Virus record (IMG/VR): IMGVR_UViG_3300008267_000468
Span: 1-31,432 of that record
From: a virus
Reading direction: 5' to 3' (one strand)
DNA: 31,432 nt
This document shows, in pieces, positions 3,295 through 31,432 of this stretch. Made by a program: the position numbers and the translations under genes. The notes under the pieces were generated by a model. That model was given only the letters and a program-made list of their open reading frames with translations. It was not told where the DNA came from and did not search any database. Position 1 is the first letter of the stretch, and every line of letters begins with the position of its first letter.

Positions 3295-3465
3295 GGGTGA
3301 TCCATTACACCCAAAGAAGGTTCATACTTTTAATTTTTAATGGTTAGATTGAGCTGGGTTTCTACCCGGCTCTTTCGCTGTCTGGGTCACGCGTTCACCA
3401 GACAAACGTCCACTGGTTCCCGGATCGTTGAGGGGATTACGGTATCTTCTGCTCACGGGACCCTC
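3295..3465 (+). ncRNA. candidate structured RNA, GC-rich, four hairpins
   Basis: This spacer is much richer in G+C than the genes around it and can fold into successive hairpins. SL1: GGGTG 3295-3299 with CACCC 3308-3312. SL2: 9-bp stem 3351-3359 with 3364-3372, one G-T wobble, four-base loop. SL3: 7-bp stem TGTCTGG 3379-3385 with CCAGACA 3398-3404. SL4: 3415-3422 with 3456-3462, one bulge, competing with GAGGG 3430-3434 and CCCTC 3461-3465. It is not a tRNA (no T-arm consensus or acceptor pairing). A 45-codon open frame runs across it, so it may instead be coding. Confidence 0.3.
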
Positions 3466-4093: not shown

Positions 4094-4318
4094 ATGGAAA
4101 AGTATCAATTAGACAATGAACATTATATGTTCGGTGGTAAAGGTGATGTATGGAGCAATACAGCTCACATCGCTAAATCAGGTGAATACACTACGATGTG
4201 TGGACGTCCGATGTTATCTAGTAACTGGGTAGCGTTAGAGGGTGTGGAGCACATTGGATGCCCTAAATGTGTAGCTAAGTATCAGCAGTTAGAAGCAGAT
4301 AAATGTGTCATGGCATAG
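4094..4318 (+). CDS. small putative zinc-binding protein, 74 aa
   Basis: A 74-residue protein with a possible metal site: His25, Cys36 (in MCGRP) and Cys56/Cys59 (CPKC). The CPxC knuckle near the C-terminus and a CG turn about 20 residues before it are the pattern of small treble-clef or zinc-ribbon folds, with His25 as a possible fourth ligand. The ligand assignment is inference and no named family is claimed. The stop codon overlaps the -33-like element of the next promoter (GGCA at 4312-4315). Confidence 0.65.
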   Translation: MEKYQLDNEHYMFGGKGDVWSNTAHIAKSGEYTTMCGRPMLSSNWVALEGVEHIGCPKCVAKYQQLEADKCVMA

Positions 4319-4333
4319 CCATGATTATATATT
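4312..4333 (+). promoter_or_regulatory. promoter overlapping the previous stop, GGCA-N12-TATATT
   Basis: GGCA at 4312-4315 overlaps the end of the upstream gene; 12 nt; TATATT at 4328-4333 followed by CACG; the ATG at 4354 is 20 nt downstream. GGCA lies within an inverted repeat, ATGGC (4310-4314) with GCCAT (4318-4322). Confidence 0.7.
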
Positions 4334-4353
4334 CACGTCATAATAATAATGAT

Positions 4354-4584
4354 ATGAAACAAATAACAACACAACCAGTAGTAACATTTCAAGTAGGCGA
4401 TCGCGTTCAATTCAATAGATCAATCAACGAACGAGGTATGAGTACGTATTTAAATACTGAATACGGTATCATAACTAAAATGAATAAGGTAACAGCGATA
4501 GTGAAAACACAAACCGCAGCATGGAAAATGAACATTGATGAGCTAAAGCAATATGTTGATCCATTTAGCGGTTGGGCTGAGTAA
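4354..4584 (+). CDS. small protein with SH3/KOW-like pattern, 76 aa
   Basis: A 76-residue protein. Residues about 10-60 read as a small beta barrel: a VGDRVQF start, a central turn, GIITKMN, then AIVKTQTAAWKM, which is the pattern of SH3-like or KOW-like barrels that bind RNA or protein. This is a pattern reading and not a family match. The ATG at 4354 follows a promoter by 20 bases; an in-frame ATG at 4303 lies inside the previous gene and before the promoter and is rejected. Confidence 0.6.
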   Translation: MKQITTQPVVTFQVGDRVQFNRSINERGMSTYLNTEYGIITKMNKVTAIVKTQTAAWKMNIDELKQYVDPFSGWAE

Positions 4585-4596
4585 TAATCATATATT
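4574..4596 (+). promoter_or_regulatory. promoter, GGGCT-N12-TATATT
   Basis: GGGCT at 4574-4578 lies inside the end of the upstream gene; 12 nt; TATATT at 4591-4596 followed by CACGG; the ATG at 4619 is 22 nt downstream. The last base of the upstream element differs from the usual A. Confidence 0.6.
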
Positions 4597-4618
4597 CACG
4601 GTACACAAATAATAAAAC

Positions 4619-4825
4619 ATGAGCAAATTAACATTTACAGACGGTGAAACATTCGATTTAAGTGGTCCATTACGTTTAGAAGAACGAGCTGATGGATGGT
4701 ATGTGTTAGGGGAAAACAGAATGATGGCTGTGAACGATGTAAACGAAGGTAATAAATACATTGAACACACTAATTACCAACTTGAACTTATGAGACAATC
4801 AGATAATTATAGCTTTATTAAATAA
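4619..4825 (+). CDS. hypothetical protein, 68 aa
   Basis: Unrecognised 68-residue protein with a likely beta-rich first half (KLTFTDGETFDL, then an ADGWYVLG turn) and a polar, Asn-rich second half. No Cys, no membrane segment, no signal peptide. It is expressed from its own promoter of the common family and is followed by another promoter five bases after the stop. A minus-strand frame at 4588-4770 is a shadow. Confidence 0.65.
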   Translation: MSKLTFTDGETFDLSGPLRLEERADGWYVLGENRMMAVNDVNEGNKYIEHTNYQLELMRQSDNYSFIK

Positions 4826-4829
4826 TAAT

Positions 4830-4862
4830 GGGGTGGGGCAGAGCCCCGCTCGTATATTCACG
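4830..4862 (+). promoter_or_regulatory. promoter inside an inverted repeat, second copy
   Basis: GGGGCA at 4835-4840, 12 nt, TATATT at 4853-4858; the ATG at 4880 is 21 nt after the box. GGGGC (4835-4839) pairs with GCCCC (4843-4847). This is a near-identical copy of 4041-4073. Confidence 0.75.
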
Positions 4863-4879
4863 ATATAAAATTAAAACAT

Positions 4880-5035
4880 ATGAACGTAAACGAATTAAAA
4901 GAACAACTACAACAGGACTTATTAAGTCTATTAGAGGGAATGGGTATTGAAGATACATTATCACCTAGTGATTATGAAAATCTTAAAAACGAAGTGTGTG
5001 ATATTGTAATTACTAATGTTAATAAATTAAATTAG
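4880..5035 (+). CDS. hypothetical helical protein, 51 aa
   Basis: Unrecognised 51-residue protein, almost entirely helical by composition (Leu/Glu/Gln/Asn-rich). The first six residues (MNVNEL) and the leader before the ATG are nearly identical to those of the next gene at 5083, so the two share a duplicated 5' end while the rest of the proteins differ. Start and stop are clear: ATG 21 bases after a promoter box, TAG at 5033-5035. Confidence 0.6.
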   Translation: MNVNELKEQLQQDLLSLLEGMGIEDTLSPSDYENLKNEVCDIVITNVNKLN

Positions 5036-5038
5036 ATA

Positions 5039-5061
5039 GGGCAAAACACAACACATATATT
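5039..5061 (+). promoter_or_regulatory. promoter, GGGCA-N12-TATATT
   Basis: GGGCA at 5039-5043, 12 nt, TATATT at 5056-5061 followed by CACGG; the ATG at 5083 is 21 nt downstream. Confidence 0.7.
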
Positions 5062-5082
5062 CACGGTATAAAATTAAACAAT

Positions 5083-5319
5083 ATGAACGTAAACGAATTA
5101 ATGAACATGAATGACATGTACTATGTAGGAAACATAGTTGATGTAGATGGTGATGGATGGGTAAGTAAAGCTGAAGCACAGCAAATATTAGATGAAATAT
5201 GCGATGGTGAAGGTGATAATAAAGTGATCAACTGGAACGGAGTATATGACTACGGTTACGGTGATGAATCACCTGCTGAACATAAGCGTATGTTAGCTGA
5301 AGTGGGAATTAAAATATAG
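5083..5319 (+). CDS. EF-hand calcium-binding protein, 78 aa
   Basis: A 78-residue protein with a complete 12-residue EF-hand loop at 20-31: Asp20, Asp22, Asp24, Gly25, Val27, Ser28 and Glu31 fill positions 1, 3, 5, 6, 8, 9 and 12, followed by a helix (AEAQQILDEI). A second, degenerate loop starts at Asp41 (Asp41, Glu43, Asp45, Val48) but lacks the Gly and final Glu. Paired EF-hands normally bind Ca2+; here one site looks competent. The role is unknown. It shares its first six residues and leader with the gene at 4880. No signal peptide, so it should be cytoplasmic. Confidence 0.75.
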   Translation: MNVNELMNMNDMYYVGNIVDVDGDGWVSKAEAQQILDEICDGEGDNKVINWNGVYDYGYGDESPAEHKRMLAEVGIKI

Positions 5320-5326
5320 ATGTGAC

Positions 5327-5350
5327 GGGTCAGAATAATAATCGTATCTT
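5327..5350 (+). promoter_or_regulatory. promoter, GGGTCA-N12-TATCTT
   Basis: GGGTCA at 5327-5332, 12 nt, TATCTT at 5345-5350; the ATG at 5374 is 23 nt downstream. Confidence 0.65.
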
Positions 5351-5373
5351 AATAACACAATTAAAAATAAAAT

Positions 5374-5553
5374 ATGACATTAATCAGTAACAAGTACTTA
5401 GAAATCCATTTAATTAAGGGTATAGTATTAGGTGTAGCTAAAGCGGATAACGATTACGCTATAATGCTAGGGTGTATAGTGATCGAATTCAAACCGCAAC
5501 GCAACGTTAAACTCAAGCGCGGCACGCGTGTTGGTAAGCCGTCCACGTTCTAG
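5374..5553 (+). CDS. hypothetical protein, 59 aa, ends at TAG with open frame beyond
   Basis: Unrecognised 59-residue protein: a hydrophobic beta-rich first half (residues 3-38) and a basic C-terminus (about 41-59, with Lys, Arg and Thr). The last 40 bases become markedly GC-rich, unlike the start. The TAG stop at 5551-5553 is followed in the same frame by 32 sense codons rich in Arg, Gly and His, then a second TAG at 5650-5652, then 84 more sense codons to TAA at 5905-5907. Readthrough, nonsense mutation of a longer gene, or coincidence are all possible; TAG is used as an ordinary stop by several neighbours. Confidence 0.55.
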   Translation: MTLISNKYLEIHLIKGIVLGVAKADNDYAIMLGCIVIEFKPQRNVKLKRGTRVGKPSTF

Positions 5554-5865
5554 TGGGCGCACGGGCGTCTGGGCGTCTGGTCACACGGGCGTCTGGGCGC
5601 GCGGGCAAACGGTCATCGGGCACGTGACCGAAAAAGGTTTCGGAGTCGATAGCGGGGCGATAGCGATACAATAGCGGAATGCTCCCATGCTAATTGCGGT
5701 CAATCGACGGGCCACGGTCATCGTAAAAAAACTATGGGTATTCTCAACAGAAACACCACCTACAACCATCGATGGGGTATATACGCATATACCATTTTCG
5801 AAAATACCCCTTTGTCCCACCTTTGCAAAATCCCAAAAAGAGGTCTTGAACAAAACGAGTTTCAA
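5554..5865. other. GC-rich spacer with direct repeats and inverted repeats
   Basis: About 310 bases with no confident gene. It begins with very GC-rich DNA containing a 16-bp direct repeat (CACGGGCGTCTGGGCG at 5560-5575 and 5584-5599, period 24). An inverted repeat CGGTCA 5610-5615 with TGACCG 5625-5630 and two CGATAGCG copies (5647-5654, 5658-5665) follow. A 7-bp hairpin GGTATAT 5776-5782 with ATATACC 5787-5793 and the palindrome ATTTTCGAAAAT at 5794-5805 come next. CACCTTTGCA at 5818-5827 is one base from a typical host TAnnTTTG promoter box. The composition suggests acquired DNA. Several frames on both strands are open, so none is convincing by length alone. Confidence 0.5.
5560..5599. repeat. 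16-bp direct repeat, period 24
   Basis: CACGGGCGTCTGGGCG occurs at 5560-5575 and 5584-5599 without mismatch. The period is eight codons, and in the frame continuing from the gene at 5374 each copy would encode His-Gly-Arg-Leu-Gly. Confidence 0.8.
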
Positions 5866-5907
5866 GTGGCAAAGTATATACGTTATATTTCCATCAAACA
5901 AAAATAA
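5734..5907 (+). CDS. possible small protein, 57 aa, doubtful
   Basis: ATG at 5734 to TAA at 5905-5907 would encode a 57-residue, Tyr/Lys/Arg/Asn-rich basic protein with no known motif; residue use is balanced and looks more like protein than the competing frames. It is in the same frame as the gene at 5374 and ends five bases before the ATG at 5913. Against it: the predicted promoter of 5913 (5868-5889) lies inside it, two hairpins overlap it, and a second plus frame and a minus-strand frame are also open here. Confidence 0.3.
   Translation: MGILNRNTTYNHRWGIYAYTIFENTPLSHLCKIPKRGLEQNEFQVAKYIRYISIKQK
5868..5889 (+). promoter_or_regulatory. promoter of the membrane/lipoprotein cassette, GGCA-N12-TATATT
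   Basis: GGCA at 5868-5871, 12 nt, TATATT at 5884-5889; the ATG at 5913 is 23 nt downstream. A full match to the family, despite the different composition of the DNA before it. Confidence 0.7.
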
Positions 5908-5912
5908 AGGTT

Positions 5913-6098
5913 ATGTTCATTTACTATTTCATCATCAGTGGGTTAATTATGGGTATTTGGGCGTCATATAGCCAATACCAAACATCAGATATCAGTGTAT
6001 TAGATATCATATTAAATTTAGTTGGATTTATGTTAATTGGGTGGATAATGTTACCCATTACACTTATTGCATTATTAGACACAATTAAAATTAAATAA
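5913..6098 (+). CDS. small membrane protein, two transmembrane segments
   Basis: A 61-residue, very hydrophobic protein with two predicted membrane helices (about residues 2-17 and 31-55) joined by a polar loop (residues 18-30). It should sit in the inner membrane as a hairpin. It is the first gene of a tight cassette; its stop TAA shares the A with the ATG of the lipoprotein gene (TAATG), which implies translational coupling. Small phage membrane proteins next to lipoproteins are often lysis or superinfection-exclusion factors, but no family is recognised here. The start is supported by the promoter box 23 bases upstream. Confidence 0.7.
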   Translation: MFIYYFIISGLIMGIWASYSQYQTSDISVLDIILNLVGFMLIGWIMLPITLIALLDTIKIK

Positions 6099-6748
6099 TG
6101 AAACAGTTTATCGTATTATTTTCAGTATTAGTATTATTCGGTTGTAGTAAAGACGCGTTACAATACCCGTCACCATTCACCAATGCAACCAGTGGTCAAA
6201 CACAAATCACAATGGGTACGCCAAAAGACGCCCGTGGTTATTTCCACTATAAGTTCGACAGAACAAAATCATTCAATTATACTAGCGTTTACGCCGAAGC
6301 TACGCGTATCACTAACGAACGTTATTTATATAACGGTGTTTCCGTCGTTGAAAGTGAGTTTGACACCGACACTTACTGGGTATTTGATACTCTCACCGTC
6401 ACTATTCCATTATATAATCCTTTTCGCTCATTATACTCTTCACCATATTTCACAACTCCACTGTCTGTTGGTACAAAAACCGTTACTTTGTCGCAATATC
6501 GCAACACTATTGTACCCTTAGTAGCTACATCCAGCACTTACTTCAAAAATTATGATGCTCGTATGGATGAATATAAACCAAGTGGAAATAATATGTGGAC
6601 AAAACAATTAATTGGTCCGATTCCAGCTCAATATCGTGGGGATACAATTAAGATATACGTTAAAACATATTGGGAGTGTGGTAATTATTCAATTACTTAT
6701 CCCGAACGTACCGAAAAAATTGATTCACTTAGTTTAATTATTGATTAA
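6098..6748 (+). CDS. lipoprotein, 216 aa
   Basis: The N-terminus is a type II signal peptide: Lys2, a hydrophobic core, then a lipobox LFGC with Cys16 as the lipidated residue, followed by SKDA. The mature part (about 200 residues) is rich in Thr, Ser and Tyr and reads as beta strands, with no enzyme motif. It would be anchored in the inner or outer membrane facing the periplasm or outside. Overlap by one base with both neighbours (TAATG at 6096-6100 and 6746-6750) places it in a coupled operon. A role in blocking superinfection or altering the infected envelope is inference from lipoproteins in other phages. Confidence 0.75.
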   Translation: MKQFIVLFSVLVLFGCSKDALQYPSPFTNATSGQTQITMGTPKDARGYFHYKFDRTKSFNYTSVYAEATRITNERYLYNGVSVVESEFDTDTYWVFDTLTVTIPLYNPFRSLYSSPYFTTPLSVGTKTVTLSQYRNTIVPLVATSSTYFKNYDARMDEYKPSGNNMWTKQLIGPIPAQYRGDTIKIYVKTYWECGNYSITYPERTEKIDSLSLIID

Positions 6749-7239
6749 TGATCCGATTAACACACGACGAGGCTAAACAATATCGCCAACTTAATAGCGA
6801 AATTGATTTTAAGTATAATATGAAATCCGCTATTGCGTATACGCTTACCCCAATTGAAGGTGGATGGGAGGAAATTACATATTATGGTGCTGCTTGGGTG
6901 GATCCAACTAATACACCTCAAAATCCACATTATGTTTATGTACTTTGCAATCCATCTGTGCCTGGAATATGCAAAATTGGCTACACCACCACAACGGTTT
7001 ATGACCGTGTTCGCCAAATTAATTTAGCTACTGGTGTTATTACGCCGTGGTACCCAACATTTGCATATAAGTGCCCTAACGGTCGTATGTTGGAAAGCGA
7101 AGTTCATGATGAACTTGAGAGACTAGGCGCACGGGTCAACAAGAAACGTGAGGGTTTTTATATGTCGTCTGACGATGCGCGTAAAATTATTGAAAAATTA
7201 GGTTCTAAATATCAAAATCAATTAAATGGCAAAGATTAA
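6748..7239 (+). CDS. T5orf172-type GIY-YIG domain protein
   Basis: A 163-residue protein. Residues 1-60 are of unknown type. Residues 62-140 match the T5orf172/MUG113 branch of the GIY-YIG superfamily: YVYVLCN (62-68) and CKIGYT (75-80) stand for the GIY and YIG strands, with Arg87/Arg89 on the following helix, Glu116 and Glu118 plus His120 in a conserved helix, and an EGFY segment (135-138) near the end. GIY-YIG proteins cut or bind DNA; in this branch nuclease activity is often unproven. It lies in a cassette between a lipoprotein and a membrane protein and overlaps the next gene by 14 bases. Confidence 0.75.
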   Translation: MIRLTHDEAKQYRQLNSEIDFKYNMKSAIAYTLTPIEGGWEEITYYGAAWVDPTNTPQNPHYVYVLCNPSVPGICKIGYTTTTVYDRVRQINLATGVITPWYPTFAYKCPNGRMLESEVHDELERLGARVNKKREGFYMSSDDARKIIEKLGSKYQNQLNGKD

Positions 7240-12899: not shown

Positions 12900-13310
12900 A
12901 TGGCAGTACCTAAAACATACCGTGTAGATCCTAGAGACTTGCAAAAAAATATTGCAATCGGTGTTGGCTTGCCATTCAATAAACCTTCTGCTTTTAAAAG
13001 TACATATAGTACTAAAGAACAGGTAAAATATAATTTAATTAACCTTTTATTAACTAATAAAGGTGAACGAGTTGAAAATCCTGAGTTTGGTTGTGATATA
13101 AAAAAATCTATATTTGATTTTATTAACAATGAAAATGTTAGTATAATTGATAATAATATAAAAAGGGGTATAGCAATGTTTATTCCTGAAATAAATTTAG
13201 GAAACGTAATTATTACTCCAACACCTGATCAAAACACAATAAACATAAAAGTAGAATACAGCATGAAAATTTCAGGTGAAGCTGATGAAATACAAATTAA
13301 CTTTGAATAA
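12900..13310 (+). CDS. baseplate wedge protein, gp25/GPW family
   Basis: A 136-residue protein of the gp25/GpW baseplate family, which forms the core of the wedge and contacts the sheath. The family signature is clear: NLINLLLTNKGERVENPEFG at residues 45-64, followed by the helix DIKKSIFDF. The C-terminal strands (IITPTPDQNTINIKVEY) complete the fold. The length is normal for the family (T4 gp25 is of similar size). The stop and the ATG of the gp6-like gene overlap (TAATG), a conserved pairing in contractile-tail phages. The start ATG at 12900 is two bases after the previous stop. Confidence 0.9.
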   Translation: MAVPKTYRVDPRDLQKNIAIGVGLPFNKPSAFKSTYSTKEQVKYNLINLLLTNKGERVENPEFGCDIKKSIFDFINNENVSIIDNNIKRGIAMFIPEINLGNVIITPTPDQNTINIKVEYSMKISGEADEIQINFE

Positions 13311-15139
13311 TGTCTGAAACAAAAAACATATCATATCTAAATAAAAGCTTTAGTGACTTTAAGTCTACATTGATAAAGCATGCTAAAACTTATTTCCCTA
13401 CAGCATATAATGACTTCTCAGACGCGTCTCCAGGGATGATGTTTATTGAAATGGCATCTTATGTAGGTGACGTATTATCATTCTATTTAGATACTCAATT
13501 CCAAGAAAACTTACTTTTATATACAAAGGAAAAAGACAATGCTATATCTTTAGCTTATGCCTTAGGTTATAGACCTAAGATGTCTTATGCATCATATGTT
13601 GATTTACAAATATCTCAAAGAGTTCCAATAATAACTAATATATTAAATAATACTGATGTTCCAGATAGTAATTATTATATTATAATTCCTGAAAACAGTG
13701 TTGTAGAAAGTATTAGTGGTGTTAAATTTTTAACTACAGAACTAGTTGATTTTTCTAAAGAAGAAAATAGAACTATTGCTTTTGACCAAACAGGTTATTA
13801 TAGAGTAACTAAAACAGTAAAAGCCATATCAGCTGAAATTAAAACAACAACTGTTGATTTTGGTAATACGCCACAAAAGTTTACTAGTACTACTATATCT
13901 GATAATAGAATATTAAATATATTACAGGTTACGGATGCTGGTAATAATATTTGGTATGAAGTTCCATATTTAGCTCAACAAGGTATTCCTCAAAAAACTA
14001 CTAATCCAACATATAACTCGGATTCAATTCCTTATTTATTAAGTTATATTGAAACACCTAGAAGATTTGTAACAAGATTTAAGGAAAATGGTGATTTAGA
14101 ATTACAATTTGGAGCAGGTACAAATGCATCTTCAGATACTTCTATTTTACCTAATCCAAATAACTTAAATTTAGGTACAGATGCTAATGTATATGATCCA
14201 ACTAATACATTTAATAGAGCAACAGTAGTAACTACAAGAGAATATGGTTTAGCACCAACAGGTATTTTAACAATAAAATATCTTGTAGGTGGGGGAATAA
14301 GTTCAAATGTTTCATCCAATGAAATCGTAAATAGAAAGTTTAATTTAGCTGATATTACTTTTAACGGTAGTGTTTCTGTTCCCCAAAATACTGATATTTT
14401 TAATAGCATGATTATCACTAATCCTGAGCCTGCTATTGGGGGTAGAGATGAAGATACTGTTGAGGAAATTAGACAAAATACTCTTTATTCTTTCTCTTCA
14501 CAAAATAGAGTTGTAACTAAAGAAGATTATATTAATAGAGTACTTAGTATGCCTAGCCATTTTGGTGCAGTAGCTAAAGTATATGCTATAAATGATTTTG
14601 CTTTATCTCAAAATTCAGGAAATGATCGTTTATTAGATAACAATCCTTTATCTATTAGTTTATATGTTTTAGGATATAATGCAAATAAAAATTTAGTAAC
14701 CCCATCTTCTGCACTTAAGAATAATATTAAAAATTATTTATCACAGTATAGAATGGCTACTGATGCTATCAATATTAAAAATGCTTATTATCTTAATATA
14801 GGTATTAACTTTGATATTTCCGTATTACCAACATTTAATAATAAAGAAGTATTAAGCAATTGTATAACTGCTTTAAAAGATAAATTTGGCATCGAATACA
14901 TGCAAATTAATAAACCATTAGTTATATCTGATATCAATTCCACTTTAATACAAGTTAGAGGAGTTCAATCAATAACAAAAGTTGAAGTTGTAAATAAATC
15001 TGGTGGAAATTATTCTCCATACAGCTATGATATCCCAGGTGCAACTAGAAATAATATATTATATCCATCATTAGATCCATCTATATTTGAAATTAGATTT
15101 CCTGATGTTGATATACAAGGTAGAATTGTAACATTATAA
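13310..15139 (+). CDS. baseplate wedge protein, gp6/baseplate-J-like
   Basis: A 609-residue protein matching the gp6/GpJ wedge family, which dimerises around the baseplate and controls sheath contraction. The N-terminal region has the typical pattern DASPGMMFIEMASYVGD and SFYLDTQFQENLLLYT, then SLAYALGYRP (about residues 38-90). The C-terminal half has the characteristic DTVEEIRQNTLYSFSSQNRV segment and the strand FGAVAKVYA, followed by the end domain. The length is close to T4 gp6. It overlaps the gp25 gene by one base and is followed ten bases later by the lysin gene. A minus-strand frame at 14044-14418 is a shadow. Confidence 0.9.
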   Translation: MSETKNISYLNKSFSDFKSTLIKHAKTYFPTAYNDFSDASPGMMFIEMASYVGDVLSFYLDTQFQENLLLYTKEKDNAISLAYALGYRPKMSYASYVDLQISQRVPIITNILNNTDVPDSNYYIIIPENSVVESISGVKFLTTELVDFSKEENRTIAFDQTGYYRVTKTVKAISAEIKTTTVDFGNTPQKFTSTTISDNRILNILQVTDAGNNIWYEVPYLAQQGIPQKTTNPTYNSDSIPYLLSYIETPRRFVTRFKENGDLELQFGAGTNASSDTSILPNPNNLNLGTDANVYDPTNTFNRATVVTTREYGLAPTGILTIKYLVGGGISSNVSSNEIVNRKFNLADITFNGSVSVPQNTDIFNSMIITNPEPAIGGRDEDTVEEIRQNTLYSFSSQNRVVTKEDYINRVLSMPSHFGAVAKVYAINDFALSQNSGNDRLLDNNPLSISLYVLGYNANKNLVTPSSALKNNIKNYLSQYRMATDAINIKNAYYLNIGINFDISVLPTFNNKEVLSNCITALKDKFGIEYMQINKPLVISDINSTLIQVRGVQSITKVEVVNKSGGNYSPYSYDIPGATRNNILYPSLDPSIFEIRFPDVDIQGRIVTL

Positions 15140-15149
15140 AAATTAAAAT

Positions 15150-15749
15150 ATGAATTTAGACAAATTAAAAGGACATATTCCTGACGCCGTAATTGCCCAA
15201 ATTCCAGGAGTTATGGAAAAATTCCAGATTAATACTCCACTACGTTTAGCACACTTTTTAGCTCAATGTGGTCACGAATCAGGCGGTTTCCGTTTAACAA
15301 AAGAAAATTTAAATTACAGCGCTAAAGGTTTAATGGGTATTTTTAAAAAATATTTCCCTACCGAAGCAAAAGCAAATGCATATGCTCGCAAACCAGAAAA
15401 GATTGCTAACTTAGTTTATGGTAATAGAATGGGTAATGGCCCTGAAGCATCTGGGGATGGTGCTAAATTCTGTGGACGTGGTTATATCCAATTAACAGGT
15501 AAAGATAACTATACAGCATTTGGTAAATCTATTAACGAAGATTTAACAGCAGACCCAACAGTAGTAGCAGGCAAATACGCATTATTATCAGCTGGATGGT
15601 TCTTTAGCAAAAATGGCTTACATAAATTAGCTGATGGTGGCGCAACTGATGCAGTTGTTACACAAATTACTAAGCGTGTTAACGGTGGTACTATTGGATT
15701 GGCTGATAGAATCAAACACTTTAAGGAATATCACGCCTTACTAGCATAA
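15150..15749 (+). CDS. glycoside hydrolase family 19 lysin (endolysin or tail-associated)
   Basis: A 199-residue GH19 enzyme, cutting the glycan of peptidoglycan (or chitin). The motif CGHESGGF (40-47) carries the likely catalytic Glu43, with Glu52 the likely second acid in the following helix; FCGRGYIQLTGKDNY (107-121) is the family's substrate-binding signature, and the last third holds the remaining helices. The length suits a single-domain phage lysin; no signal peptide is present. It lies in the baseplate operon and is followed by a perfect terminator hairpin, so it may be a virion-associated lysin replacing the lysozyme domain missing from the spike, or the cell-lysis enzyme. Confidence 0.9.
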   Translation: MNLDKLKGHIPDAVIAQIPGVMEKFQINTPLRLAHFLAQCGHESGGFRLTKENLNYSAKGLMGIFKKYFPTEAKANAYARKPEKIANLVYGNRMGNGPEASGDGAKFCGRGYIQLTGKDNYTAFGKSINEDLTADPTVVAGKYALLSAGWFFSKNGLHKLADGGATDAVVTQITKRVNGGTIGLADRIKHFKEYHALLA

Positions 15750-22263: not shown

Positions 22264-23223
22264 ATGTCATTTAATAGATATAACACAGAAGATTCAGTAA
22301 TAAGTTCAGAAACAGTTGTTAGAGGGTTATGGCCTTCTGATAATGTGAATTTAACATCTGTAGCAACTTCTTCAACTCAAGCATCAGCATCGCAATTTTA
22401 TTTAGATGTATATAATGCAGGTGAAGTAGTATTCTCTATTGAATATGCTCACATTTCAGGTTCAGGATCAGCTTACTTTAATTCAAATGTAACTAGTTCT
22501 ACACCTACAAAAGTAGTATATGGTCAGTATAGAAATTTAATTTACGGAAGTGAAACAGCAACTTTCCAAATTGGAGGTTCTACTGTAAGTTCATTTTATG
22601 TTATTAACGTAGCAAGATCTCGATATAAAGAATCTTTACATCCTGGTTCTTTAACCTTAGCATTAAGTGGAAGCTCTGGAATTATTTCTTTAACAGATAA
22701 TAGTACTGTTTTAACTACTAGTCAATTTATTGATAGTAATAGATATTTCAATATTGTTAGTGGATCTGCAGGAACACCTGCTAACACAACAGTATATGGA
22801 CATATGTTTCCTGATTTAGGTTTAATAGTTTTAAGCCCAAGTGCTATTGGTTCAGGATATATATCAACTCCAGGTACATCAACTAATAGTTATGATAATA
22901 ATAACGCTAAATTATATGATTCTATAAACAGAGCTGTTGGTGGTAGTAGATTCTTCAGATTACAATCTCAAGAAACTATTTCATCTCGTTTCTTCTTTAC
23001 AAGAATTAAAAACAGTGAATATAATTATACTTCAAATCCATCTATTATTGATAATACAGGTAATATCTTGTATTCAACATTAATAGATAATCCACAAACT
23101 TATATCACAACTGTAGGGTTATATAACGACAATAACGAATTATTAGCTGTTGCTAAATTAAGTCGCCCATTAGTGAAAGACTTTACTAAGGAAGCCTTAA
23201 TTCGTATCAAGTTAGACTACTAA
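22264..23223 (+). CDS. tail structural protein, 319 aa, C-terminal domain shared with the 102-aa protein at 27419
   Basis: A 319-residue protein with beta-rich composition (Ser/Thr/Tyr-rich). Its last 85 residues contain SEYNYTSNP and YITTVGLYNDNNELLAVAK, which recur nearly unchanged in the small protein of 27419-27727 (SEYNLSYNP, YVTTLGLYNEQNELLMVAK). The shared domain may be a collar or connector used at two sites flanking the fibre genes. The N-terminal 230 residues are not recognised. It lies directly before the large fibre gene. Confidence 0.65.
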   Translation: MSFNRYNTEDSVISSETVVRGLWPSDNVNLTSVATSSTQASASQFYLDVYNAGEVVFSIEYAHISGSGSAYFNSNVTSSTPTKVVYGQYRNLIYGSETATFQIGGSTVSSFYVINVARSRYKESLHPGSLTLALSGSSGIISLTDNSTVLTTSQFIDSNRYFNIVSGSAGTPANTTVYGHMFPDLGLIVLSPSAIGSGYISTPGTSTNSYDNNNAKLYDSINRAVGGSRFFRLQSQETISSRFFFTRIKNSEYNYTSNPSIIDNTGNILYSTLIDNPQTYITTVGLYNDNNELLAVAKLSRPLVKDFTKEALIRIKLDY

Positions 23224-23242: not shown

Positions 23243-26200
23243 ATGGCATCATTCAAAAAACTGAGTACATCAGACGTATTTGTTGTTCCTTATACAGCAA
23301 ATAAAAATTGGGACCTTACTTTTGCTTGTGTCCCTCAGGATGGTGCATATTTTACTATATTTAAAGGGAAAAATTTAATCAATAATATTGATTTAGTTAA
23401 CGGTCCTATAACTGAGGCTCAATATGAGTCTTTAGTTTATCGTCAAATAAATCATTTATATTATCAATACCACTCTTCAAGTATTCTTGATTCTCATTCA
23501 TTATTAGATTCTATGTATTATGAATCTTACATGACAGAATCTAGCACTATATCAACTGGTTCTTATTTTGATTTTAATGAGAATCCTGAATTTATAAATA
23601 ATTTTCCAACATCATCTAATGATGTTATTAGGGTAATGTCATTCAACCAAAACATTTATGGTGAACAAATTAAACCTAATAACTTTATTTTAACTGCAAG
23701 TGGTAGTTACCAATTAGCAGATGATGGATTAGGAAACGTATATGATATTTCATTTACAGGATATTACGTACAACCTGGCTACTATGCTCCTCCAGGATAT
23801 ATAGCTGAATTACAAAATAAAGTTCATGTAGGAAATATATTTTATTCTCAAGGTGTAGTTGTTATTACTAACCAAAACTATAAATGTTTTTTACCTACTC
23901 CTCCTAATGCTATAAATGATTATTTTAGAGTATTAAACGTACAAAGAGTTAAGAAATTAGATATTTTAGCTAATGATTATATTGATTGTAATTCTACAGC
24001 TATCGTTACTAGCTCAATAGTAACATACCCTTACACAGGATATAATTTTCCTGATGTTACCTTAATCACAGGTTCTCTTTTTGTAGATGAATGTGAAACT
24101 TTAGGAGTAACACCAGGAAATTATAAATTATATTATACTGTAAATGATAATACTTGTTTAATAAGTAATACAGCTAGCATTAATTTAGAACTTTATAAGT
24201 TACCTTTAGAAATGTCTAGAACACACCAACCAATTGTTTGTGTTGGAGGTGTTTCACCTGTAACTTTCTCAATAAATTATGGTGTTCCTCCTTATCAATA
24301 TTCAATTGGTGGTGGAACATATAACAATTTAGCTAACTGTGAGTGGTATCAACCAACAGCATCTACAACAGCTCCTATTGGTAATAGTATATTATATATT
24401 AAAGATAGTGAAGGAACAATTGTTTCTTCTTCATTTGCTGTAGCAGCAGATATATTTACTGTAACTACAAATAAAATTGATGTAACTTGTGGTGGTACTA
24501 GTGATGGAAAAATAGCAGTTACTGGATCTTCAACTTATGGAGCTCCATATTCTGCATCTATAAATGGAGGAGGTAGTTGGCAAGGATTTACTTCAAATAC
24601 TTTATTCTCAAATTTATCTGCAGCTACTTATACAGTAGTTGTTAAAGATAATATTTGTAGTACTTCATCTTTAGTTACTATATCTCAAAATCCTCCTCCT
24701 ACAGTAACTATAAATTCAACAACAGCAGATTGTCCTGAACCAGGTCAAGATGTGGGATCTATTAGTATAACTGTTACTGGAGGTACTTCTCCGTACACAT
24801 ATTCTTGGACTACAGGATCTACAGTAGTAAGAACAGTAGAAGATCCAACAGGATTGCCTGCAGGTTCTTACACAGTAACTGTTACTGATGCTAATAGTTG
24901 TACTGCTACAGGTAGTGCTACAATTAGTAGTGTAAGTTCAATATCTATAAATTTAACAGCAACTAATTCTTCATGTGGTGTAGGTAATGGTCAAATTTCA
25001 GCATCTGTGAGTGGTGGTAGCGGAAATGGATTTAGCTATTTATGGAATACAGGAGCTACAGGAAGTATAGTTACTGGTAGTACAGGAACTTATACTTTAA
25101 CAGCAACAGATTTAGGCACAGGATGTACATCAGCTGCTAGTGCTTCTATATCTTCATCAGCAGGAATTACTGCTTTAACTTCATCTTTAACTTATAACCA
25201 ATGTGATACTAGTATTAGTATTGGAGTTACAGGTGGAACTTCTCCTTATACTTACTTAGTACAAAAAGGAGGAACATCACGCTCTCAAGGACCTACAGGA
25301 TCAAATCCAGCAACTATTAACTTAAATGATGGTTTAACTGGAGGTACTTGGAACATAACTGTTGCTGATTCTAATGGTTGTACAATTACAGGTAGCATAA
25401 ATGTAAGAGCTAGAGAATATAGATACTCAGATCCAGTATGTCAAGAATTGAATGGTTTATTAGTAGTTGATGAATCTTCAGGTGTTGGTACTAACCTTAA
25501 AACTAAGGCAAATAATCAAGATACATCTAACTTATCTGCAACTAGTGCAGAATTCATTCAAATACATAATGGAACTACTCATAGCTTTGAAGCACCTTTA
25601 TATCCACCAACAGATACAGGATGGGTTGGTAATTATATGTCAGCTTCCCATACAATGTCTGTTTATACTACAGGTTCATTAACATTTACAACTTCTAGCA
25701 TTGAAACAGGAAGTGCTTATTGGCCGTTCTATAGCTTAACAGGAAATTCAAGTAGATACTATTTAGTTAAAGCTAAAAGTAATCTAGTAACGGGCTCTAC
25801 ACCACCACCAGTAAGCTATAACTGTATTAGTGGTAGTTGTATTGATCCAGGAAATGGAACTGGTACTTATGCTACATTAGTAGAATGTCAGTCTAATTGT
25901 GCAGCACCTTCTGCTAGTGCATGTTATACAATTTCAACGGGAACAATACCTGTTACAGGAGGTTCTGGAACAACTGCTCAAGGTACTATAACTGTAACTG
26001 GAGGATCAGTTAATGTTTGGGCCAAATATAATTCAGGAGGAACAACATCAGGTATTGCTGGGTTCTATATGAATATTGATGGATTTGATGCTAGCGGTAC
26101 ATTTACTATTGTAAGTTCAGGTCAAACAGGATATTCAAGTAGTGGTGGTACAGCAAGTGGATATATAACATTATCACCAGGAACTTATAATTTCTCATTA

Positions 26201-26566
26201 ACAAAATCTGATAACTTAACAAGTGGAAATGAAGTAAGATTTAGTTGGGCTAGCAGTACAGTTACTGATCCTACTTCATCTACTAGCATGAGTGCTTGTG
26301 TAACCTATTATACTTTATTAGGACCTACTAACGGATTATCAGGTACTTCTGGTGGGGCTTGTGCTAATTATTCTAGTACTAGAAGCTATTATAGCAATGT
26401 AAACTTTATGCAAAGTAGTGTAACATATATTTATGATTCAACTTCACCTACATTAACACCTTTAAATACAGGAGGTCAATGGAAACCATTATCATTTAAT
26501 GGCACTAATTTATATGCAGTTATAACCAATTCATCAGGTATGGTAACTAATTATACCTCATGTTAA
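23243..26566 (+). CDS. large tail fibre or adhesin with SprB-type repeats, 1107 aa
   Basis: An 1107-residue, Ser/Thr/Gly-rich protein. Residues 1-110 may anchor it to the baseplate. About residues 410-725 carry four SprB-type repeats; the best reads VTGGTSPYTYSWTTGS, then LPAGSYTVTVTDANSCTATGSATIS. SprB repeats are known from the gliding adhesin of flavobacteria. About residues 857-885 form a Cys-rich module (YNCISGSCIDPGNG, later CQSNC), and the C-terminal 200 residues, again Cys-containing, could be the receptor-binding tip. No signal peptide is present, so it is a virion protein and not a host-secreted adhesin. Borrowing of host-type repeats is inferred. Confidence 0.75.
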   Translation: MASFKKLSTSDVFVVPYTANKNWDLTFACVPQDGAYFTIFKGKNLINNIDLVNGPITEAQYESLVYRQINHLYYQYHSSSILDSHSLLDSMYYESYMTESSTISTGSYFDFNENPEFINNFPTSSNDVIRVMSFNQNIYGEQIKPNNFILTASGSYQLADDGLGNVYDISFTGYYVQPGYYAPPGYIAELQNKVHVGNIFYSQGVVVITNQNYKCFLPTPPNAINDYFRVLNVQRVKKLDILANDYIDCNSTAIVTSSIVTYPYTGYNFPDVTLITGSLFVDECETLGVTPGNYKLYYTVNDNTCLISNTASINLELYKLPLEMSRTHQPIVCVGGVSPVTFSINYGVPPYQYSIGGGTYNNLANCEWYQPTASTTAPIGNSILYIKDSEGTIVSSSFAVAADIFTVTTNKIDVTCGGTSDGKIAVTGSSTYGAPYSASINGGGSWQGFTSNTLFSNLSAATYTVVVKDNICSTSSLVTISQNPPPTVTINSTTADCPEPGQDVGSISITVTGGTSPYTYSWTTGSTVVRTVEDPTGLPAGSYTVTVTDANSCTATGSATISSVSSISINLTATNSSCGVGNGQISASVSGGSGNGFSYLWNTGATGSIVTGSTGTYTLTATDLGTGCTSAASASISSSAGITALTSSLTYNQCDTSISIGVTGGTSPYTYLVQKGGTSRSQGPTGSNPATINLNDGLTGGTWNITVADSNGCTITGSINVRAREYRYSDPVCQELNGLLVVDESSGVGTNLKTKANNQDTSNLSATSAEFIQIHNGTTHSFEAPLYPPTDTGWVGNYMSASHTMSVYTTGSLTFTTSSIETGSAYWPFYSLTGNSSRYYLVKAKSNLVTGSTPPPVSYNCISGSCIDPGNGTGTYATLVECQSNCAAPSASACYTISTGTIPVTGGSGTTAQGTITVTGGSVNVWAKYNSGGTTSGIAGFYMNIDGFDASGTFTIVSSGQTGYSSSGGTASGYITLSPGTYNFSLTKSDNLTSGNEVRFSWASSTVTDPTSSTSMSACVTYYTLLGPTNGLSGTSGGACANYSSTRSYYSNVNFMQSSVTYIYDSTSPTLTPLNTGGQWKPLSFNGTNLYAVITNSSGMVTNYTSC

Positions 26567-26582: not shown

Positions 26583-27404
26583 ATGATAAGAAGATCAGGA
26601 AATAAGATTTATACAAAAGTAACACAATATTTTACAGATAACAGTTCAACTGTAGGATATAGTCATACTCTTACTTCCCCAACTGAAAGCTTTTGTGGAA
26701 CAAACTTTTATTATGAACAACGTTTAACTAGCAGTTTAGCTAATGGAAAGTGGAGAGATTGCCTATATGGGCCTTTTACTTTTTGCTCTGGTTCAACTTC
26801 AGGTAGTGCTTGTTCAAGTGGAAATTGTGATCAATTTTATTTAGACACATCAGCTATTAATATAGACTATACTGGAGTTGTTGTTGATGAAGCATCAAAT
26901 GTAACTTTATATACTGGGTCAAGATTATACTTATCTTCTAGCTTAGAATTAGCACCAGACGGATATTATGTTTCTGGTGGTGTATTTTATAAAGTAGGAA
27001 ATGGCAATTGTTGTGGTATAAATAATGGAACTTTTATATCTAGTGGAAGTTGCCCAACATCTCCGGCAACAGGAAGTATTTACATAAATAATACTAATTC
27101 TTTAAATATTCCTATTACAGGTATGACAATTAATGGAGTTGCTGTTACATTTGAATTAGGAACTAATTTTACTATAGCAGCAGGAAATAATGGAACTTTT
27201 TCTACAAGCCAAACAGGAAGTCAAACTGTAGTAATATCTTATGGAACTCATACCCCAGGTCAAAATATAGTATTTACTGATTCTAATAATAATATAACTT
27301 GTGAAACTTTAAATGGTCCAGGAGGATCATTTACAATCTCTTCATCAATAATAACAGCTGGTACCACTATTAGTGTAGTAACAAATGATGGAGTCTGTCC
27401 GTAA
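26583..27404 (+). CDS. Cys-rich fibre-associated protein, 273 aa
   Basis: A 273-residue Ser/Thr/Gly/Asn-rich protein with about a dozen Cys scattered through it, suggesting secreted-type or surface-exposed beta domains (possible disulfides in the released virion). Residues about 160-273 resemble the repeated Ig-like modules of adhesins (GMTINGVAVTFELG, then TQTVVISYG-like strands). It follows the large fibre gene within 16 bases, so it may be a second fibre segment or an adhesin tip. No family is recognised and no signal peptide is present. Confidence 0.6.
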   Translation: MIRRSGNKIYTKVTQYFTDNSSTVGYSHTLTSPTESFCGTNFYYEQRLTSSLANGKWRDCLYGPFTFCSGSTSGSACSSGNCDQFYLDTSAINIDYTGVVVDEASNVTLYTGSRLYLSSSLELAPDGYYVSGGVFYKVGNGNCCGINNGTFISSGSCPTSPATGSIYINNTNSLNIPITGMTINGVAVTFELGTNFTIAAGNNGTFSTSQTGSQTVVISYGTHTPGQNIVFTDSNNNITCETLNGPGGSFTISSSIITAGTTISVVTNDGVCP

Positions 27405-27418
27405 TAAAATAAATAACA

Positions 27419-27727
27419 ATGCCACAATATACAGGATCGTTTAATATTAATTTTAGAAATGAACACACAGTTTACGAAAATTTTGTAAAATGTACTGTTG
27501 AGGAGAGTGAATACAATTTATCTTACAATCCTACTTTGTTATCTGATAGAACTAACTTATCATCATCATTGGTGAATTTTACAACTGGGTCTAGTTTTAG
27601 GCCTTATGTTACAACATTGGGTTTATATAATGAACAAAATGAACTTTTAATGGTTGCAAAATTTGGAAAACCAATTCCTGTTTCGTCAGAAACAGATATG
27701 ACTTTCTTAGTTAAATACGACACATAA
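27419..27727 (+). CDS. small tail protein repeating the C-terminal domain of the 319-aa protein
   Basis: A 102-residue protein. From about residue 30 to the end it aligns with the C-terminal domain of the product of 22264-23223 (SEYN, NP, then Y(V/I)TT(L/V)GLYN with NELL and VAK). The first 30 residues differ. This points to a duplicated connector domain, free-standing here and fused there, on either side of the fibre genes. It is followed at once by the ParB-like gene (TAATG overlap). Confidence 0.65.
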   Translation: MPQYTGSFNINFRNEHTVYENFVKCTVEESEYNLSYNPTLLSDRTNLSSSLVNFTTGSSFRPYVTTLGLYNEQNELLMVAKFGKPIPVSSETDMTFLVKYDT

Positions 27728-28126: not shown

Positions 28127-28576
28127 ATGGTACAAGTTAGCCCCGCTATGAAAGTGGAGGATTTAATAGACAATCCTAATTTTGTTATTGAGGATTTTGT
28201 AGGTTATGTTTACATCACTACTCACATTCCAACTAATCGTCAATATATTGGACGAAAAGCCTTCTTTCATAACACAACAAAGAAATTAGGTAAAAAAGAA
28301 TTAGCAGAAATTCCTGTTACTAGAGGTAAACGCCCAACTAAAAAATTAGTCACTAAGGAAAGTGACTGGAAAACATACTATGGTTCTGCTACTGAAATTA
28401 AATTATGCAAACCAGAAGATATGATGCGTCACGTGTTACGTTTATGTAGAACTAAAAAAGAACTAACATACTACGAGGCAAAATATCTATTTCAATACAA
28501 CGTTTTAGAAGATAGTCGTTTTATAAACGACAATATACTTGGAAAATTTTATAGCAAAGATTTGATTTTGTCATAA
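28127..28576 (+). CDS. SegE-type GIY-YIG endonuclease
   Basis: A 149-residue protein of the phage SegE-like GIY-YIG group. GYVYI (26-30) and YIGRK (40-44) are the GIY and YIG motifs; Trp81 and YYGS (84-87) are further conserved positions; Glu117 in the YYEAKYLF helix is the likely metal-binding catalytic residue. Such enzymes cut DNA and often act as homing endonucleases in T4-like phages. It lies just upstream of the primase gene. Its stop falls within the primase promoter region. Confidence 0.8.
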   Translation: MVQVSPAMKVEDLIDNPNFVIEDFVGYVYITTHIPTNRQYIGRKAFFHNTTKKLGKKELAEIPVTRGKRPTKKLVTKESDWKTYYGSATEIKLCKPEDMMRHVLRLCRTKKELTYYEAKYLFQYNVLEDSRFINDNILGKFYSKDLILS

Positions 28577-30338: not shown

Positions 30339-31043
30339 GTGAATAATAATCAATTTACAATAGTCATTCCTTGTAAAAATGAAGGTATAAACATATACGA
30401 TTGTTTAGGCTTTATTTGTAAACAAAAAGGAATAAAAAATACTAGAGTTATCATTGCTGATATAAGCGATGATGAAGAGTCACTAAATTGGTTATACAGA
30501 GCTCAAACAGATTATAAGTATTCTATTAAAATAGAAGTTATTAAAGGGGGGTATCCATCTAAAGCGCGCCTTGAAGGTTCGAAATTAGTTGATACCCCTT
30601 ATATATTGTTTTTAGATGCTGATATAATGTTACTTGATAAAAATGTTTTAGATGTTATATCTGATTTTAAAGGTGATTTATTAACAGTACCATTTCAAAC
30701 TGAAAAAGGATGGAATTGGGTATTTCGCATATTTGATATATTTCAAAATTTAAGTGTAAAATTAGGTACACCATTCGCCGTGGGTGGTTTCCAATATTGG
30801 AATACCCAAACATATTGGGATTTAGGTGGTTATAAAGAAGATGAACTATTTGCAGAAGATTACTCTTTATCTTCTAAAGTAAAACCTAAGAAATTTTGGA
30901 TACATGAATCAAACGGGGTATTTACATCAGCCAGACGCTTTAAGAAAAAAGGTGTTGGTTATATGTTTTGGATAATGATTAAAAGTTATCTAAACAGAAA
31001 TAATCCTGAATTTTTTAAACACCACCACAACTACTGGAAATGA
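30339..31043 (+). CDS. family 2 glycosyltransferase (GT-A), 234 aa
   Basis: A 234-residue glycosyltransferase of GT2 type. The N-terminal nucleotide-sugar fold shows IVIPCKNEG (8-16), then ARLEGSKL and the metal-binding DxD motif Asp93-Ala-Asp95 (FLDADIML). The acceptor region follows, ending in a basic helix. No membrane segments, so it is cytosolic or peripheral. It starts with GTG; the ATG two bases earlier is followed directly by TGA and cannot serve. It overlaps the metallophosphoesterase gene by four bases (ATGA). A role in modifying phage DNA or host surface sugars is possible; the sequence does not choose. Confidence 0.75.
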   Translation: MNNNQFTIVIPCKNEGINIYDCLGFICKQKGIKNTRVIIADISDDEESLNWLYRAQTDYKYSIKIEVIKGGYPSKARLEGSKLVDTPYILFLDADIMLLDKNVLDVISDFKGDLLTVPFQTEKGWNWVFRIFDIFQNLSVKLGTPFAVGGFQYWNTQTYWDLGGYKEDELFAEDYSLSSKVKPKKFWIHESNGVFTSARRFKKKGVGYMFWIMIKSYLNRNNPEFFKHHHNYWK

Positions 31044-31432
31044 GATACCAAGCAATTATAGTATCGGATTTACATTTAGGTACTAAAGACTCTAAAGCAG
31101 AAGAATTTATTGAATTTTTTGAAAAACATCCAACTGATCTTTTAATATTAAATGGTGATATTATTGACGGTTGGGCTATTAATAGGGGAGCAAAGTGGAA
31201 AAAACACCACACAAAGGTTATTTCTAAACTATTAAAATTATCTAACAAAACCCAGATAATCTGGATTAGAGGAAACCATGATGAGTTTATACAAGAATTT
31301 ATTGGAATGCATTTCGGAGGCATTGAAATTAGAGAAGATTATGTACTTCATACAACAACTTGGGTGGAGAATGATGTTTATAGGAATGAAAATTATTACA
31401 TTTTCCATGGAGATGTTGTGGATGTTTTTATA
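31040..31432 (+). CDS. metallophosphoesterase, LpxH-like, truncated by the window end
   Basis: The first 131 codons of a metallophosphoesterase. The metal-binding motifs are visible: DLH in SDLHLG (8-13), GD in NGDIIDG (38-44), GNHDE (77-81) and GD in FHGDVVD near the cut. This order is typical of calcineurin-like phosphoesterases, with LpxH-type UDP-diacylglucosamine hydrolases the closest pattern. Its start ATG overlaps the glycosyltransferase stop (ATGA). The 3' end lies beyond the window, so the length and C-terminus are unknown. Confidence 0.8.
   Translation, partial: MRYQAIIVSDLHLGTKDSKAEEFIEFFEKHPTDLLILNGDIIDGWAINRGAKWKKHHTKVISKLLKLSNKTQIIWIRGNHDEFIQEFIGMHFGGIEIREDYVLHTTTWVENDVYRNENYYIFHGDVVDVFI

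Follow-up and report, generated by a model that had tools for sequence, protein, structure and literature searches.

The window analysed here is a virus record of 31432 bases, a fragment of a phage genome. Its plus strand carries an open reading frame (23243-26566) for a protein of 1107 aa, in which PF13573 (SprB repeat) was found above its cut-off and which has homologues in related viral contigs. The protein is laid out as an anchor, an Ig-like rod with four SprB-type units and a variable tip. The N-terminal anchor (residues 1-225; 23243-23917) is the most conserved module; it is 47-50% identical to the anchors of three relatives without the four-unit rod (L029, L030 and L034) and matched the start of gp105 of Flavobacterium phage immuto in a profile comparison (E 5.7e-11), and a search for a solved relative of the anchor found none. 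The middle part (residues 226-405; 23918-24457) is probably Ig-like and contains a weak match to a degenerate fifth SprB-like unit at residues 324-360 (i-E 0.006, with a profile from bacterial units). It is followed by the SprB-type units R1 (residues 406-483; 24458-24691), R2 (residues 484-563; 24692-24931), R3 (residues 564-643; 24932-25171) and R4 (residues 644-720; 25172-25402), by a post-rod domain (residues 721-845; 25403-25777) and by the variable C-terminal tip (residues 846-1107; 25778-26563). The full-length structure model, built from a shallow alignment, had a pLDDT of 32 and was too poor for use; the usable model covers the rod only.

The fibre gene is housed in a tail and baseplate block and adjoins counterparts of the tail fibre and tail spike genes annotated in immuto. 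Also encoded on the plus strand, upstream of the fibre, are a baseplate wedge protein (13310-15139; PHROG 6, E 4e-14, and PHROG 219, with Baseplate_J just below its cut-off), an endolysin-like protein (15150-15749; PHROG 181, E 9e-71) and a structural-type protein (22264-23223) that is the counterpart of immuto gp106, with 44% identity over its full length. The order of wedge, endolysin, structural genes, fibre and then primase is the same as in immuto, and the fibre region follows the 79-104 kb region of that phage, which encodes a wedge, structural proteins (33-68% identical) and then tail fibre and tail spike genes; immuto gp105 itself is annotated as hypothetical. A capsid gene of the T4 gp23 type is present in two long relatives, contigs of 171 and 161 kb. 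In the long contig that was tested, gp23 is 57.7% identical to that of immuto, the next relatives being those of Microcystis phage Mel-JY01 and Rhodothermus phage RM378. Stops in the gp23 gene of one relative were found to be an artefact, the ORF being intact. On these sequence comparisons the contig is assigned to a T4-like phage related to Flavobacterium phage immuto. This kinship makes a host among the Bacteroidota likely, although a Microcystis phage is also among the relatives and kinship alone is therefore no proof of such a host.

Downstream of the fibre gene, on the same strand, lie the genes for a second protein with a variable end (26583-27404; 273 aa) and for a 102-aa protein (27419-27727) that is homologous to the C-terminal end of both immuto gp105 and WWT39517 of Microcystis phage Mel-JY01 (blastp E 1e-23 and 4e-21, respectively). 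What is one protein in immuto and in the Microcystis phage has its two ends separated here, with the rod, the tip and the second protein between them. Because the start of gp105 is matched by the anchor and its other end by the product of the 102-aa gene, the rod and tip look as if they had been inserted into an ancestral anchor protein. Both gp105 and WWT39517 have the anchor and the C-terminal module in common with the window locus (the anchor match of WWT39517 being weaker), but they are single, shorter proteins without an SprB rod. At the place of rod and tip, the Microcystis phage protein has a lectin-type LamG domain, and L029, L030 and L034 have Pro- or Thr-rich linkers and different end domains. 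This place appears to act as a site for recognition modules, in an order of events that we infer. The sequences of the fibre family are all metagenomic; a whole-protein search of cultured phages gave no match, the sole match being one uncultured record of 642 kb, and a two-unit query against cultured phages gave weak matches to decoration and tail proteins of Klebsiella phages.

SprB-type units of the rod

The preliminary description placed four SprB-type repeats in this gene, and their presence was confirmed with both PF13573 and a profile built from bacterial units only. Four tandem units of ~77-80 aa occupy residues 406-720 (24458-25402). When the whole fibre protein was searched against Pfam, PF13573 scored 35 bits against a cut-off of 28 and no other family, including any Ig family, was found up to an E value of 1; an unrelated Ig family, the alternative identity for these repeats, is ruled out because Pfam gives SprB alone. 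The PF13573 matches lie at 24464-24574, 24755-24823, 24953-25060 and 25211-25276 (E 2.6e-4 to 2.2e-9), and two of these four unit matches pass the cut-off singly. The bacterial-unit profile found units at residues 405-482, 488-562, 566-637 and 645-722, with i-E values of 5e-11, 6e-25, 6e-14 and 3e-12, respectively. R2 is the best family match of the units, and its identity with bacterial repeats reaches 63%. PF13573 was above its cut-off in six of seven related records and absent from all 14 control genomes. As to the motifs by which the repeats were originally recognized, unit 2 alone has VTGGTSPYTYSW and AGSYTVTVTDANSC in exact form, and the other units have variants.

The four-unit block, when aligned unit by unit, is 33-42% identical to Bacteroidota proteins rich in PF13573 units. 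An alignment of 8 phage rods and 44 bacterial segments (A3), most rows of which have two invariant or near-invariant cysteines per unit, was the basis of the rod model, which consists of four beta-sandwiches (pLDDT 87). The closest solved relative of the rod, by profile (E 6e-36) as well as by fold (PDB 9flp, 9flw and others), is the grappling-hook protein GhpA of Aureispira, which took ranks 1-5 in a Foldseek search with the rod model. The TM-scores were 0.44-0.52, so the likeness is one of domains and not of the whole arrangement; GhpA is a bacterial hook protein of 5898 residues, of which only rod-like parts match. The rod profile also matches Hoc, T5 pb10 and the neck whiskers gp24. SprB of Flavobacterium johnsoniae is like the phage fibre in its repeat family (PF13573) and unit pattern. 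The phage fibre, by contrast, has four units only, together with a phage anchor and tip, and stands outside an SprF or gld context; its N-terminus, MASFKKLSTSDVFVVPYTANKNW, is without a signal-peptide pattern as judged by eye, and a T9SS C-terminal sorting domain was not found in it with Pfam (E up to 1).

SprB repeats in phage proteins as such are already annotated. The uncultured Caudovirales proteins A0A6J5LD72 and A0A6J5LDA4, both named SprB repeat, and the NIOZ-UU157 protein A0A7S9SUG9 have SprB-type or similar rods; no anchor in common with the window fibre was shown for these three proteins, and we know of no study of domain exchange in them. Beyond the close relatives, SprB-type units were found in another 37 viral contigs, one of which (L134) is a distant member of the window fibre family and some of which are probably bacterial or prophage-borne.

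Unit number and exchange of cassettes

Four units were found in all nine complete rods, which span 332-335 residues, and a change of repeat number by expansion or contraction is not supported for these relatives. The fibre of L134 is 32% identical to that of the window over 817 residues, with the same gene order, and its rod has three clear units and the trace of a fourth at matching places. Judged from these alignments, these phages have had the SprB block for a long time, at a stable number of units. Since an aligned rod is already present in so distant a fibre as that of L134, the acquisition would be ancient, the block probably having come from a Bacteroidota surface protein long ago. The suggestion that repeats of this kind favour recombination held in one respect, R3 and R4 being exchanged as cassettes, and not in the other, copy number being the same in every complete relative.

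The exchange is seen most directly in the comparison of the window with its closest relative, L005, to which its DNA is 95% identical in the anchor, 98% in the middle part, 94-95% in R1 and R2, 88% in R3, 66% in R4, 92% in the post-rod domain and 98% in the tip. Two classes of R3, two of R4 and two of the post-rod domain are found across the nine phages. R3 of the window has 83-88% DNA identity to that of L005, L006, L009, L012 and L022 and 58-62% to that of L008, L010 and L013, while its R4 is 90% identical to that of L006, 79% to that of L022 and 64-67% to all others, L005 included. R4 of L005 is 98% identical to R4 of L008, and the anchors of these two phages are just 88% identical. For the post-rod domain, the classes are separated by identities of 77-92% versus 62-66%, and all four combinations of R3 class and post-rod class are present.

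Recombination in the rod was found with our own permutation test of the PHI type (p 0.001, the floor of 1000 permutations), with a signal also within residues 1-405, whereas the neighbouring gene at 22264-23223, which served as a control, was without signal in the same test (p 0.92). The clade of window and L005 had support of 96/94 on residues 1-563 (anchor to R2) and was rejected for R4 (p-AU 4e-58), and the R4 grouping was rejected for residues 1-563 (p-AU 2.6e-18); the tested clades were named after the identities had been seen, and these p values are descriptive. An assembly chimera was rejected as the source of the R4 pattern, as both alleles occur in contigs of several metagenomes and are not identical copies. 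RVT_1, as the mark of a diversity-generating retroelement that might account for the variable tips, was not found in the seven related records, which include those of 171 and 161 kb and are possibly incomplete.

The tip is replaced as a whole. That of the window is 70% identical, over the aligned part, to the tip of L022 and has no match in the SprB-rod relatives other than L005 and L022. L009 and L012 have rods that are 93.6% identical and tips that are unrelated, and the tip of L009 is also found on other rods, namely those of L034 (53.5%) and of L145 and L156 (48-49%), the latter two fibres being otherwise unrelated. In the product of 26583-27404 (alignment A6), the first ~157 residues are kept and the remainder is replaced between relatives, and the DNA identity of window and L005 drops to 47-55% at 27001-27400. 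The end of this second protein varies independently of the fibre tip, since window and L005 have the tip in common and not this end. The alignments indicate that R3, R4, the post-rod domain and the tip are swapped among these phages as whole cassettes.

The long tail fibres of T-even phages (gp37/gp38) are mosaic adhesins in which a constant shaft is combined with an exchanged distal part. Their folds differ from those of the window fibre family, in which the rod units are exchanged as well. The new part is this unit-by-unit exchange of alleles within such a rod: no earlier description of it was found in the open-access literature, where SprB repeat and phage were found together only in the context of polymorphic toxins. 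The locus offers a clear natural case of single Ig-like rod domains, beyond the tip, being exchanged between related phages, and the two-class alleles are a ready set for testing rod domains in host recognition.

Proposed role of the fibre protein and its host

The product of the gene is probably a fibre with which a T4-like phage, itself probably infecting Bacteroidota, recognizes its host. The gene context and the anchor match to immuto make the original reading as a tail fibre probable, and a conserved N-terminal anchor combined with an exchangeable distal part is what is seen in tail fibres. The anchor would attach the fibre to the baseplate or tail, the rod of Ig-like beta-sandwiches, four of them SprB-type, would carry the tip outward, and the tip, possibly together with the 26583-27404 product, would contact the host surface; tips and distal units would be swapped by homologous recombination in the conserved sequences that flank them. 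We infer a location on the tail, host binding by the tip and the distal units, and selection of the exchange for the changes in binding that it brings.

Within this reading, the SprB units could be a mere rod, with R3 and R4 alleles that differ only through neutral side effects of recombination around the tip. The fixed unit number is consistent with such a passive spacer, as is dN, which is below dS in every segment of the fibre. However, R4 has been exchanged without the tip, window and L005 having tip and post-rod domain in common and not R4, and we consider a purely passive role a serious possibility of somewhat less than even probability. Given this exchange without the tip, R3 and R4 may be more than a neutral spacer. 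That they are ligand-binding domains, with two allele classes swapped singly as recognition cassettes, is a more tentative and rather doubtful proposal; if it is true, the adhesin-derived rod would be a modular recognition surface besides the tip and the second protein.

The place of the protein on the particle is putative, as domains of this sort also occur in Hoc-like head decoration proteins and in neck whiskers. Phages are well known to carry Ig-like domains, and T4 Hoc, T5 pb10 and other Ig-like decoration proteins have related beta-sandwich domains. The window protein could accordingly be a long Ig filament on the capsid or collar which, like T4 Hoc, sticks weakly to surfaces and does not bind a receptor. 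The Hoc-like PHROG 2973 was indeed matched (E 1.7e-5), its best stretch covering residues 484-637 only, and the annotation of some phage proteins whose repeats are weakly similar is likewise that of a decoration protein; the rod-profile matches to Hoc, pb10 and the whiskers point the same way. These matches are confined to the generic Ig part, however, and the gene lies in the baseplate and tail block, where its neighbours correspond to genes annotated in immuto as tail fibre and spikes. Moreover, the decoration proteins are on the capsid, have few domains and have no swapped tip, whereas the wholesale tip replacement found here is typical of adsorption proteins. A head-decoration or neck-whisker protein is therefore unlikely, and a host-recognition fibre is the preferred reading.

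The repeats had also been taken to point to a gliding Bacteroidota host, of which the Bacteroidota part is supported and the gliding part is not. Among the 80 top-scoring bacterial matches to unit 2, all those whose titles give a group belong to Bacteroidota, spread over many orders, and the nearest cultured phage infects Flavobacterium. In an evenly drawn sample of 148 Bacteroidota genomes, PF13573 was above its cut-off in 33. The bacterial genome scan used one 55-aa unit as query, and among the 28 genomes holding the closest repeats GldJ, a mere proxy for gliding with a cut-off that may suit flavobacteria best, was above its cut-off in 13. Because of these counts, the SprB repeats in the phage are taken to indicate surface proteins of a Bacteroidota type and not gliding. 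It is very improbable that, as the preliminary description proposed, the fibre mimics or competes with SprB filaments, its units engaging the gliding filaments or their carrier so that the phage rides the adhesin of a host that would have to glide: the identity of the four-unit block to bacterial adhesins and the view that phages of gliding Flavobacterium use components of the gliding machinery as receptors (PMC7345892) speak for it, but the fibre is without the signal peptide and T9SS sorting domain of an adhesin, SprB repeats are widespread among the surface proteins of Bacteroidota and not tied to the gliding marker, and the fold is that of a generic rod.

Other genes near the locus and in relatives

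Downstream of the fibre locus, the window carries genes for a family 2 glycosyltransferase (30339-31043) and a calcineurin-like phosphoesterase (31040-31432), which could modify the host envelope. Glycosyltransferase-like genes, recognized by eye, are also found between the fibre gene and the 102-aa gene in two of the relatives without the four-unit rod (L030, 7260-8938; L034, 5199-6155). Where the window has the glycosyltransferase and the phosphoesterase, two related contigs from different metagenomes have a host-type outer-membrane barrel receptor with an OMP_b-brl_4 and a carboxypeptidase-regulatory domain and a signal-peptide-like start. The receptor gene of L041 (G008:C1; 7807-11079, minus strand, 1090 aa) is intact, has genes common to other phages on both flanks and encodes a protein with a full-length identity of 59% to proteins encoded on Bacteroidota chromosomes; the copy in L043 (G005:C1; 1-1566, minus strand) is 90% identical to it. 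Such a phage-borne receptor by the fibre locus could have a role in receptor replacement, superinfection exclusion or uptake. A second, different gene, which is like those of TonB-dependent receptors (825 aa; Plug and OMP_b-brl_3), lies at 4265-6742 on the minus strand of L042 (G001:C1, 14000-27000), in the 171 kb relative, amid putative lipoproteins and a protein with a C-type-lectin domain, and is either phage cargo or host DNA.

Genes similar to GIY-YIG-type endonucleases (T5orf172; SegE) are found at 6748-7239 and 28127-28576, and the latter, just downstream of the variable fibre locus, might promote gene exchange. The G+C content of the window is 42% and 36% in its first two 4 kb blocks and 29-33% elsewhere; chimerism was rejected as the cause of this rise in the first 8 kb, because relatives have matches to the first 6 kb and the shift looks native. 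A stretch at 3320-3347 recurs nearly unchanged over 26-28 bases elsewhere, on the opposite strand, in three relatives and is possibly a common regulatory site.
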